Origin: Fimbriimonadaceae bacterium
Lineage (GTDB): Bacteria; Armatimonadota; Fimbriimonadia; Fimbriimonadales; Fimbriimonadaceae
Direction of reading: 5' to 3'
NCBI GenBank assembly: GCA_023957775.1
Contig: JAMLGR010000006.1
Span: 124,001 to 188,000, forward strand
DNA length: 64,000 nucleotides
Shown here: positions 1 to 48,807 of the stretch, one piece after another
Layout of the letters: the number at the start of each line of letters is the position of its first letter
How positions within the stretch are numbered: position 1 is the stretch's first letter
Notes under the pieces: generated by a model
What the model was told of the DNA's origin: nothing
Databases searched by the model: none
What the model saw: the letters and a program-made list of their open reading frames with translations, nothing else
Position numbers and translations under genes: made by a program

Positions 1-418
1 TGATGTCGAGGCTGATCGAGCCCTTGCCGCCCTCGAGCGCCAATCCCATCTGGGGCAACGCGGCCTTCGGCTGGATCTCGAAGCCGTTGAGGGCGAAGGT
101 TCGCCTTCCGGACCGCAATCCGAATCCGCCCGTGTTCGTCAGTCTGCCCGATTCGAACTGCCGGAACTGGTGGTTCTCGATTTCGAACAGGAGCGTCGAT
201 TCGCCGAGTGCGAAGCCCAAACCGTCGGGCATGTCCCACTTGGCCTTGGCCGTAGTGCGGGCTTGCACGACGTCCAGCCCGATCGCTTCCAGAATTCCGG
301 GAGCGAGTTCGAGCGTCGTGGTTCCTCCCGTCACACGCCACGTCTCCGTGGCTTGCGCGGTCGTCGCGCCCAGCAGGAGCGCAGTCGCGGCCAGGCCGCA
401 TGCAAAACGAAATTTCAT
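1..418 (-). CDS. Exported protein of unknown function, 3' end outside window
   Basis: This frame is open from the ATG at 418 to the window edge (139 codons, no stop seen). Residues 1-23 form a signal peptide: basic MKFR start, a hydrophobic Ala/Leu-rich core and a TAQA cleavage box. The visible mature part is beta-rich, with alternating hydrophobic residues and many Gly/Thr, as in secreted beta-sandwich proteins. I do not recognise a family. A well-spaced promoter lies upstream at 515-543. The missing C-terminus would show whether it carries a sorting signal such as PEP-CTERM. The gene is certain; its function is unknown. Confidence 0.75.
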   Translation of the reverse strand, partial: MKFRFACGLAATALLLGATTAQATETWRVTGGTTTLELAPGILEAIGLDVVQARTTAKAKWDMPDGLGFALGESTLLFEIENHQFRQFESGRLTNTGGFGLRSGRRTFALNGFEIQPKAALPQMGLALEGGKGSISLDI

Positions 419-45401: not shown

Positions 45402-46700
45402 ATGGCTAGTTGTTCTAGGTTTGACAATCGATATCTTGTGAATTTACGAGTGGTATTCGTACTACTCTGTCTCGTTGTGGCGTGTGGCGTGGCGCTCTTT
45501 CGGACTGTAGGCCGCGTGGAAGCGGCGGTCTCGGTCCGCCAGGATCCCACTCAGTACTTGATCGCTTCGTGGCGGCCGGTCCGCGAGGATTTGGCCCTTG
45601 CCACACGGTTGGACGGAGTCACGGCCGTCCGGTACACGCGCGGCGAAACGGAGTTTGTGAGAACCTTGCTCGGGGGCGTGGGTCTGTCCGAGGCCGAGGC
45701 AAAGGCGCGGGGGATCGTGGTGTTCGAGGGGACGAACTGCCTGATCAACCGCCTGGGTTCGGGGAAAGATCCGCTTGGAGCCGCACTGGTTCGGGCGGAC
45801 CGGGAGCGCCGATCGTCGGAGCCCAGCAAGATCCCCATGGCGGTATTGGGAGGCGTTTTGTTGGGGGTGTGGCTTCGCTTTGGCACGGCCATGCTGCGGT
45901 TTGGCGCTTTGGCGGCGATGGGGCTTGCGGCGTACCAGTGGATGACGGCCTGCCCCACGTGTCCTTCGCTGCGGCTGGCCGGCGTGCCGGTTTCCATTCT
46001 TGGGGCATGTCTGTACGGAGCGCTCGGCATCGCCTTGGCCTCTCGCCGGTGGGACGCGGGCGCGGCTTGGGTCGCCGCTCCGCTGGCGGCCGGGGTGCTG
46101 GCCTGGCAGTCGATCGCCGCTCTGGTCACGGGGACCGATTGCGGTCCGTGCGCCGGGATCGCGTGCCTGAACGCGGCGCTTTCGGTTTCTGCGCTGGCGC
46201 ACGGTCTGCGGCGGGTCGCCCCGAGCCGGGCGTGGGGTGTCCGACGCACGGCGGTTGGATTGGCGTTGGCGTTGGCGGCGTCCATCGGGGCGTCCCAGTT
46301 CGCTTCGCAGGGCCGTGCGGCGACCCCCCACGCGCCGCCCCCGCCCAGTCTCGCGGGCTACCGCATCCAGGACCTGGGTTTGCAGCCCAACGGCCACGCC
46401 CGGCTGATCTTCGTCGCGATGTCCGAGTGCCGGTTGTGCCACGGGGTGTTGGAGTATTTGGGGCGCCACCCCGAGGTCGACATCGAAGTGTATTTCACGG
46501 ACCGCGTGCCGCCGGCCTACCAGTCGTTCGCCAGCCTGATTCCCGATCCGCACTGGATCGCGACGACGCCGGCGTTCCTGGTGGCCGACAAGTCGGGGAC
46601 GATCGCGGTGGAGGAGAAGGGCTGGACGTTCGGCGACGAGTGGCAGAAGAAGTTCTTGGACAAGCTTGAGGCGTCAAGAGTGCGCCTGGAAAAGGAGTAG
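45402..46700 (+). CDS. VKOR-like membrane oxidase with thioredoxin-fold C-domain
   Basis: 432-aa membrane protein. An N-terminal anchor (about 15-33) and an exported domain (35-140) precede four membrane helices (about 147-163, 167-180, 195-214, 225-262). Residues C184 and C187 come just before a GVPVSILGACLYG helix, and C247-G-P-C250 begins the last helix, as in vitamin-K-epoxide-reductase-like proteins. The C-terminus (about 325-432) has C343-R-L-C346 and a TTPAFLV strand typical of a thioredoxin cis-Pro loop. The likely role is oxidation of extracytoplasmic thiols. The following gene encodes a Cys-rich exported peptide that could be its substrate. The start is uncertain (GTG at 45396 or 45438). 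Confidence 0.7.
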   Translation: MASCSRFDNRYLVNLRVVFVLLCLVVACGVALFRTVGRVEAAVSVRQDPTQYLIASWRPVREDLALATRLDGVTAVRYTRGETEFVRTLLGGVGLSEAEAKARGIVVFEGTNCLINRLGSGKDPLGAALVRADRERRSSEPSKIPMAVLGGVLLGVWLRFGTAMLRFGALAAMGLAAYQWMTACPTCPSLRLAGVPVSILGACLYGALGIALASRRWDAGAAWVAAPLAAGVLAWQSIAALVTGTDCGPCAGIACLNAALSVSALAHGLRRVAPSRAWGVRRTAVGLALALAASIGASQFASQGRAATPHAPPPPSLAGYRIQDLGLQPNGHARLIFVAMSECRLCHGVLEYLGRHPEVDIEVYFTDRVPPAYQSFASLIPDPHWIATTPAFLVADKSGTIAVEEKGWTFGDEWQKKFLDKLEASRVRLEKE

Positions 46701-46702
46701 TG

Positions 46703-47035
46703 ATGACAACGTATTTGAAACTGATCGCCACGGGCGCCTGTCTGGCCTCCGTGTCGGCCCTGGTGGTGGCGGGCCTTCCGATGAAGCCGCTATGCCTCGG
46801 GTCCTATTCGGAGATGTCCGTGCATGTGGAAGTGTGTTACGACGGGAACTGCAGCGGATTGCCCGGCAGACCTCACTTATATAAGGGAGTGTGCGAGTCC
46901 TGGTGCTGCCCGGAGAGTTGGCAACAGGGACGCCAGTTGGACATGACGACCTGCCAACTGTTCCCTACGGCCGACTGCTGCCCCCGAAGCGGCCCTAAAC
47001 CTATCGAAGGGTGCCCCTCCCCGCCCGAGAAGTAG
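46703..47035 (+). CDS. Cys-rich exported peptide
   Basis: 110-aa precursor. Residues 1-25 form a signal sequence. The mature part of about 85 residues has 10 cysteines (31, 45, 50, 64, 68, 69, 84, 92, 93, 104), including two CC pairs, and many Pro/Gly. No known toxin, bacteriocin or metallothionein pattern fits. AAAGGAG lies 5 nt before the ATG and the gene begins 2 nt after the stop of the VKOR-like gene, so the two are translated from one message. Ten cysteines suggest five disulfides. Confidence 0.72.
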   Translation: MTTYLKLIATGACLASVSALVVAGLPMKPLCLGSYSEMSVHVEVCYDGNCSGLPGRPHLYKGVCESWCCPESWQQGRQLDMTTCQLFPTADCCPRSGPKPIEGCPSPPEK

Positions 47036-47185: not shown

Positions 47186-48298
47186 TTGGGTTTGACCGAC
47201 GGACAGGGCCTCGCCGCACGACGCAAGATCGTGTCGGTCGTCTTGCGCATCCCAGTATCGATTCTATTACTTCATTTCGTTGCCACGGTGGTGCAGACGG
47301 TCTTCGCCGATTTGCTGCTGCGCAAACCAGAGTCCTTTGAAAGGTTGCGGACTCTCGCAAACCCGCGCATTCTCTATTCCGATCCCGCAGCTGACATCAG
47401 CCCGTTTTATCACCTCTACTGGGTTCCCTTCGTGGCGTTTGCGATTCTCACGTTTGTGGCGCCATCCAGGAGAGTGCCTGCTTATCTTGGAGCTATTGCC
47501 GGATATCTGTTCGGATGGGCCACCTTTGCACCGACGACCGTGCTGCACGATTTCGCATTCTGGCCCTGGGTCATTCGGGTCGTGGCCATCGCCGCCGCAG
47601 CCGGCCTGACCTTCACCCTGTTCGAGCCGGCCCTCGAGGTCGTGGAAGTCTGGCTTTCGCGGCCCCGACGCTTCGTCATGGCCGCCCTCGCCGCGGGCGC
47701 GGTGGGCGCCGTGTTTGCCTATCCGGTCGCCGCCGACTATGTCGACGGGAGGGTGGCGTTCCGCGTCGATCGCCAGCACCTCGCGTCCACGTACCGCGCG
47801 ATCGTCCTCTACGAGGCCGATCACGACGGGGAGGCACCGAAGAGCCTGCCCAACCTCGTCCCGGGCTACCTCGACGAGCGCCAACTCCAATCCCCGAAAG
47901 ACAGCCGTCCGCGCCGCAACCCCGACGGCTACCCGGCCGATCTCTACGTCTTCCGAAAGCGCGAGTACGCGCACTACGCCCCGTTCCGGGTGAGCTATGC
48001 GTACGCCCGCTCGTTCGAGCGCACCTTGGTCTCAGAAAGAAGTTGGGAAGAGATCCGCGCCGACCCCGATTTCGGCCTGCTGGCCAACGAGCAACACTGC
48101 TACCTTCGAGATCCGTCCCAGCACTCGATGCCGGGGGCGCTCACCCCAATCAGCCCATCGACATTGGAAGACCACGGGGATCCCACCGATGCCGGACCGG
48201 TGATGCGCGTCATGATGGACGGCTCGCTCCGCGTGTTGCAGAAGGACGCCTATGGCGTGGGGGACATCCCCGAGCGGTTGTTCTACTCCTGGTACTGA
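47186..48298 (+). CDS. Membrane protein with pseudopilin-like C-terminal domain
   Basis: 370-aa protein. Five or six hydrophobic helices (about 15-38, 78-92, 98-115, 125-150, 165-185) are followed by an exported domain from about 190. That domain begins with a helix (VDRQHLASTYRAIVLYEADH) and short strands with KSLPNLVPGYLD, resembling the globular part of H-X9-DG pseudopilins, though no type IV prepilin cleavage site precedes it. The C-terminus carries VMRVMMDGSLRVLQKD, similar to the H-X9-DG end. It starts at TTG (GGGGGG upstream); the start is uncertain. Confidence 0.55.
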   Translation: MGLTDGQGLAARRKIVSVVLRIPVSILLLHFVATVVQTVFADLLLRKPESFERLRTLANPRILYSDPAADISPFYHLYWVPFVAFAILTFVAPSRRVPAYLGAIAGYLFGWATFAPTTVLHDFAFWPWVIRVVAIAAAAGLTFTLFEPALEVVEVWLSRPRRFVMAALAAGAVGAVFAYPVAADYVDGRVAFRVDRQHLASTYRAIVLYEADHDGEAPKSLPNLVPGYLDERQLQSPKDSRPRRNPDGYPADLYVFRKREYAHYAPFRVSYAYARSFERTLVSERSWEEIRADPDFGLLANEQHCYLRDPSQHSMPGALTPISPSTLEDHGDPTDAGPVMRVMMDGSLRVLQKDAYGVGDIPERLFYSWY

Positions 48299-48339: not shown

Positions 48340-48807
48340 ATGAATCGATCGCTGCTCTTGCCGTTTCTCATTCTCGCCGCCCCGTCGTTCGGCTGGGCCC
48401 CACAGGCCTCCTTGCGACCCGAACTTCACGTGCGCTCGCCGCACAGCTTCGAGAAGACGGTTCAGCGCCTGAAGGACGCGTCCGCGGAGGCGAAGTTCAG
48501 CGTCGTCTTCGAACTCGACGTCACGGCGCGCGCCAAGGAGAAGGACATCGTGATTCCTCCGACTACGATCCTCGGGGTCTGCAGCGCCAAGTACGCGTCG
48601 GCCGTCCTCGCCGCCGATCTTCGCGCGGTCCCGAACCTCCCCTGCCGGATCGCGGTCACCGAGCGCGACGGAAGGGTCGACGTCTGGACGATGGACGTGC
48701 TCCAAATCGCCGAGCACTACTCGGGGGAGACCATGGGCCAAACCGCACGGGAGATCGATACGACGGTCCGGAAGATCCTGGCGGCCGGCACGGCGCTCAC
48801 CCCTTGA
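48340..48807 (+). CDS. Exported DUF302 protein
   Basis: 155-aa DUF302 protein with a signal peptide (about residues 1-19, ending FGWA). The family core follows: FEKTVQRLKDASAEAKFSVV, GVCSAKYASAVLAADLRAVP and LPCRIAVTERDGRVDVW. It is the exported relative of the cytoplasmic DUF302 protein at 31909. The last 11 nt overlap the convergent permease gene. Confidence 0.82.
   Translation: MNRSLLLPFLILAAPSFGWAPQASLRPELHVRSPHSFEKTVQRLKDASAEAKFSVVFELDVTARAKEKDIVIPPTTILGVCSAKYASAVLAADLRAVPNLPCRIAVTERDGRVDVWTMDVLQIAEHYSGETMGQTAREIDTTVRKILAAGTALTP

Follow-up and report, generated by a model that had tools for sequence, protein, structure and literature searches.

A conserved three-part operon in Fimbriimonadia that looks built for making a tightly cross-linked exported protein

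We analysed a window of 64,000 nucleotides from a Fimbriimonadaceae bacterium (contig JAMLGR010000006.1, positions 124,001 to 188,000), in which three adjacent genes encode a predicted membrane oxidase, a cysteine-rich exported protein and a membrane protein of prepilin ancestry (Table 1). An earlier sequence-only reading of the window had described a 432-aa protein with three CxxC motifs and a TTPAFLV segment, followed after 2 nt by a 110-aa precursor, and both ORFs read exactly so. The oxidase gene contains AAGGAG in its final codons, likely the ribosome-binding site for the peptide. A search of the operon region for a sigma70-like promoter found none. Searches of Pfam and NCBIfam at E 1 matched none of the three proteins, whether oxidase, peptide or third-gene product; the weak Pfam names that fragments gave (Ligase_CoA, DUF4729 and others) were rejected as chance matches.

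Table 1. Features of the operon; gene coordinates are window positions, domain and motif coordinates are residues of the oxidase
Feature	Position	Strand	Remarks
Membrane disulfide oxidase, predicted	45402..46700	+	432 aa; homologue alignment, hhalign, fold matches
Oxidase TM1, then periplasmic Trx-like domain without CxxC	~52-138		predicted model
Oxidase VKOR-like helix bundle	CPTC 184-187 and CGPC 247-250
Oxidase C-terminal Trx domain	CRLC 343-346, cis-Pro P390
Exported Cys-rich protein precursor	46703..47035	+	110 aa, ATG start, hydrophobic N-terminus
Third gene, TM protein and prepilin-derived C-terminal domain, fused	47186..48298	+	370 aa; GF/TxxE processing motif lost

The oxidase is predicted to have an N-terminal transmembrane (TM) segment and further ones. 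Its structure model, of middling confidence (mean pLDDT 63), comprises TM1, an N-terminal domain, a helix bundle and a thioredoxin (Trx) domain. The N-terminal domain is modelled as beta-alpha-beta-alpha-beta-beta-alpha, a thioredoxin order, without a CxxC in the window copy; the matching region of locus L189 has a CPGC. Among 11 oxidase homologues, the membrane pairs C184/C187 and C247/C250 are invariant, the Trx CxxC is invariant or nearly so, and the cis-Pro is conserved. With its CxxC and cis-Pro, the C-terminal domain has the marks of a thioredoxin fold, and it matched CcmG, ResA and Trx in Foldseek and VIA-align comparisons.

The sequence-only reading had called the oxidase VKOR-like, and this is supported. 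Compared by hhalign with the canonical VKOR-Trx proteins of this class (14 sequences), the oxidase family gave probabilities of 89-91 (E 1e-6 to 2.5e-6), with an alignment placing GVPVSILG on GIPVALLG, CGPC on the TM4 CxxC of VKOR and CRLC on the CxxC of its Trx domain. Like VKOR, the oxidase has two redox cysteine pairs, one of them a CxxC at the start of TM4. Its fold matches included Synechococcus VKOR (3kp9/4nv5/4nv6) alongside unrelated helix bundles. Foldseek aligned this VKOR over the bundle and Trx domain of the model at E 7e-3, and the bundle scored Z 10-11 to it versus 12 to a four-helix copper-storage protein.

The oxidase falls outside the VKOR family PF07884, whose profile matched neither the window oxidase nor its homologues. 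Position +3 after the CxxC is of I/V/L/A type in the oxidase family, whereas an invariant Ser (S125) occupies it in the VKORs of the class; a conserved Ser or Thr near the VKOR active site is a likely functional residue (PMC4555120). Because the PF07884 match and the Ser/Thr are both missing, we describe the oxidase as VKOR-like and not as a member of that family. It shares with the Synechococcus VKOR-Trx fusion a helix bundle with two cysteine pairs, TM5, a C-terminal Trx CxxC and the order of these motifs. In addition to the two absences above, it differs in its outer cysteine pair (CxxC, against C-x7-C in canonical VKOR), in an extra N-terminal Trx-like domain and in being tied to one neighbour gene. 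Together, profile comparison and model indicate that the oxidase is a distant VKOR-type enzyme, by working and probably by descent. Of the 113 genomes of the class, 107 encode a canonical VKOR elsewhere, among them the window genome and the first six oxidase carriers, and the operon oxidase is therefore an additional enzyme. MauE/DoxX, the competing family named in the earlier reading, was rejected: the oxidase has no PF07291 match, and hhalign to MauE proteins of the class gave a probability of 0.2%.

The mature peptide has the 10 cysteines reported before (31, 45, 50, 64, 68, 69, 84, 92, 93 and 104, with CC at 68-69 and 92-93), and we add that an eleventh cysteine of the precursor (13) falls in the signal region. 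These cysteines form the frame C..C..C..C..WCC..C..CC..C, in which eight are invariant or nearly so at 18-27% identity. The peptide had no match among PDB sequences. The structure model of the peptide (pLDDT 43) was unusable.

The 'unusual membrane protein' previously noted downstream does follow the pair as part of the same unit, and can be described more exactly as the fusion of a TM protein with a degenerate prepilin. True prepilins align with its C-terminal half. Five of six third-gene orthologues match TIGR02532, the window copy does not, and the type IV prepilin processing motif GFxxxE is absent from the window protein. In genomes G006, G027, G067 and G011 the third gene simply encodes a type IV prepilin. 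A separate TM gene accompanies the prepilin in G027, G067 and G066 (preceding it in the first two), and the TM part is fused to the prepilin part in G024, G069 and the window. Judged by its sequence, the window protein is a membrane-anchored, degenerate pseudopilin. The loss of its processing motif weakens any claim that pilus polymerisation is needed. A DUF302 protein lies 41 nt past the third gene (48340-48807) and was not seen in related operons.

We searched 61 genomes with single sequences, 113 genomes of the class with an oxidase profile and 291 genomes of the phylum with a peptide profile. The single-sequence search found oxidase relatives at 23-33% identity in three genomes (G006, G024 and G027) and a peptide relative in G024, whose frame (L023:4473-4820) has no ATG, GTG or TTG ahead of the signal region, leaving its start unclear or lost. 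The peptide profile added G006, G027, G067 and G011, and none further among the 291 genomes. In all five genomes the oxidase gene lies directly before the peptide gene and a prepilin gene comes after. Eight more loci emerged with the oxidase profile (G066, G069, G078, G068, G079, a second in G006 and two in G038), every one adjoining an exported protein with 10-12 cysteines, nearly all in the CC..C..CC frame. This brings the total to 14 clear oxidase loci in 12 genomes, the window included. A prepilin or prepilin-derived gene follows at all 14, and the oxidase and peptide genes are -4 to +4 nt apart where measured. The sequence-only reading had allowed that the pairing might be missing in relatives. 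It is kept at every clear oxidase locus, and the coupling of a VKOR/Trx-like oxidase to a cysteine-rich exported peptide is thus borne out by comparison, with disulfide formation as the predicted activity.

A weaker oxidase-profile match (L191) had no cysteine-rich exported neighbour, and neither did the weakest ones (L163-L166). The same scan found an exported cysteine-rich ORF at none of 30 canonical VKOR loci (98 kb), and there was one such ORF in 94.5 kb around the prepilin genes of the window genome. Comparing oxidase loci with housekeeping VKOR loci gave a Fisher P of ~1e-10, or ~1e-7 with only the loci found after the idea had formed; these values serve as guides, given the relatedness of the loci. 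Weak single-sequence matches in G000:C2, G048, G009 and G014 were dismissed as chance hits at unrelated loci. A conserved-block search of genome contigs with the oxidase alignment found no relative, and a plasmid search gave no match.

A similar pairing was found with true MauE proteins of the class (PF07291, CxCFG type). At 16 of 18 such loci an unrelated exported protein follows, mostly with 8 cysteines; these clusters sometimes include a prepilin and mostly lack one. Considering the VKOR-type and MauE-type clusters together, a private oxidase beside a cysteine-rich exported protein is therefore a habit involving two oxidase families. The MauE-type loci (L140-L148, L192-L200) often also encode an exported protein of 300-370 aa that has a TM segment at its C-terminus. 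Beside one MauE/Cys-rich cluster, in G017, lies a C39-like peptidase (L145:6520-7050; E 2e-4, narrowly missing the Pfam cut-off). The window genome itself has an exported protein with 7 cysteines past its signal region amid prepilin genes (L071:9582-9896, G000:C6), with no oxidase recognised nearby.

Some described systems resemble this arrangement. MauE/MauD, like the oxidase, combine a membrane redox protein and a Trx-like partner for one cysteine-rich exported protein, the small subunit of methylamine dehydrogenase. However, the window oxidase is not a MauE, the peptide is unrelated to that subunit, and the partner here is prepilin-derived. In Streptomyces, decRiPPter found three MauE-bearing candidate RiPP families, in which a candidate small precursor lies beside a MauE-type protein (PMC7794033). 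These come from another phylum and involve another oxidase family, whereas window-type loci have a constant prepilin-derived gene.

In relatives from two genera the oxidase ORF goes out of frame at a poly-G tract, G10 in G067 (L031:5213-5222) and G14 in G011 (L032:5088-5101), at the same point of the gene after the N-terminal domain. Each looks like a contingency tract, which suggests phase variation. The G067 locus is public record JANYCU010000047.1, an Armatimonadetes MAG. Genome-wide there are two tracts of G10 or longer in G067 (4.1 Mb) and about eight in G011 (3.5 Mb), which puts the chance of one tract inside the oxidase gene at ~6e-4 and ~3e-3, respectively. The window operon has no poly-G tract. 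The oxidase is broken away from any homopolymer in G006, G027 and G038, and decay or assembly error may explain the breaks as well as switching would. We consider it moderately likely that poly-G slippage switches the oxidase gene on and off, in relatives only.

Poly-G/C tracts of 10-16 also occur in L069 (G011:C7), L065 and L070 (G011:C8), and L063 and L064 (G027:C2 and C6), either in promoters, as in TTGACA-polyC-TATAAT, or within the genes of other Cys-rich exported protein/prepilin operons. At L067 (G000:C16) of the window genome, a promoter of the form TTGACATA-C10..12-..-TATCCT occurs three times, twice ahead of large RHS-like repeat proteins and once ahead of a different exported protein; these are likely phase-variable surface genes. 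Poly-G tracts of the window genome and G024 are mostly in other contexts. A search of mainly open-access literature found nothing on phase variation in Armatimonadota.

Disulfide making in most genomes is the work of one general machine. Here we propose, with a probability of roughly 0.7, that the operon is dedicated to the oxidative folding of an exported cysteine-rich protein, with a pseudopilin-like partner. The gene order, the coupling, the CxxC sets, the Cys frame, the prepilin ancestry and the frame-breaking G tracts can be read directly from the sequences. The cysteine-rich protein would be exported unfolded, as a precursor, via Sec. Oxidising equivalents would pass from the intramembrane CxxC (247/250) to the outer CxxC (184/187) and on to the Trx CxxC (343/346), a direction of electron flow that we infer. 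The Trx CxxC would then form the disulfides of the cysteine-rich protein, which is probably the substrate of the oxidase. The pilin-derived protein and its membrane partner may subsequently help to hold the folded product, display it or secrete it, a role to which we give even odds, and poly-G slippage may switch the oxidase gene in some relatives. We found nothing on the combination of oxidase, cysteine-rich protein and prepilin in the mainly open-access literature searched.

The sequence alone does not decide between an oxidase, an isomerase and a reductase, and the protein could instead be a Trx-linked reductase or isomerase whose cysteine-rich neighbour uses free thiols for metal binding or electron transfer. 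The fold matches of the Trx domain to the reducing CcmG and ResA point this way, as does the likeness of the helix bundle to a copper storage protein. However, two membrane CxxC motifs, of which the inner lies in VKOR register, together with a Trx domain after TM5 amount to a VKOR oxidase layout, and the even 10-Cys frame suits disulfides; we regard this alternative as improbable.

Other readings differ over what the folded protein is for and are compatible with dedicated folding. The cysteine-rich protein may be a secreted antibacterial in a bacteriocin- or RiPP-like cluster, matured by the oxidase, with the downstream proteins serving export or immunity. A small exported protein that varies greatly between genera and keeps its cysteines would fit this purpose, as would the patchy distribution of the cassette, the G tracts that break the oxidase frame, the C39-like peptidase adjoining the cysteine-rich gene in G017 and the MauE-bearing Streptomyces families. 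This reading is nonetheless rather unlikely: the N-terminus of the peptide is of Sec type and not a double-Gly leader, the ORFs read near the window operon included none recognised as an ABC exporter or immunity gene, and the cassette has a constant prepilin-derived gene. Bacteriocin clusters are not known to have such a gene. BdbB/sublancin-type clusters have a DsbB-family oxidase, a glycosylated peptide and an ABC exporter, none of which was seen at the window operon. They are alike in that the cluster brings its own thiol oxidase for an exported peptide with disulfide bonds (PMC4336743).

Alternatively, the cysteine-rich protein could be a pilus- or pseudopilus-associated surface protein, such as a tip or adhesin, and the cassette an interchangeable pilus module that is phase-variable in some species. 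A prepilin-derived gene comes directly after the pair at all 14 loci, and the further poly-G tracts of G011 and G027 lie at promoters or in genes of Cys-rich/prepilin operons. By analogy only, VKOR-driven folding through VKOR/MdbA is needed for the pili of Actinomyces oris (PMC5478893); that system is a general one for sortase pili, without a dedicated operon. Against a pilus module, the prepilin processing motif is lost in the window copy and prepilins are mostly absent from MauE-type clusters. We hold it only tentatively, and consider antibacterial and surface roles about equally likely.

The three genes look like a conserved, apparently undescribed operon whose product would be an exported protein with tight cross-links. 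They might, more speculatively, be one example of many switchable cassettes for cell contact or competition, a large class that would also be undescribed. Each cassette would combine a private VKOR- or MauE-type oxidase with a fast-evolving cysteine-rich exported protein, and, in the VKOR type, with a pseudopilin-like carrier, with poly-G switching in genes and promoters; this wider view is possible but doubtful. The bacterial class repeatedly couples a private oxidase to a single cysteine-rich exported protein, and the VKOR type adds a pilin-derived partner. This points to unstudied cross-linked exported proteins outside all family databases. With the same pairing in two unrelated oxidase families, the specificity of an oxidase for its substrate becomes directly testable.
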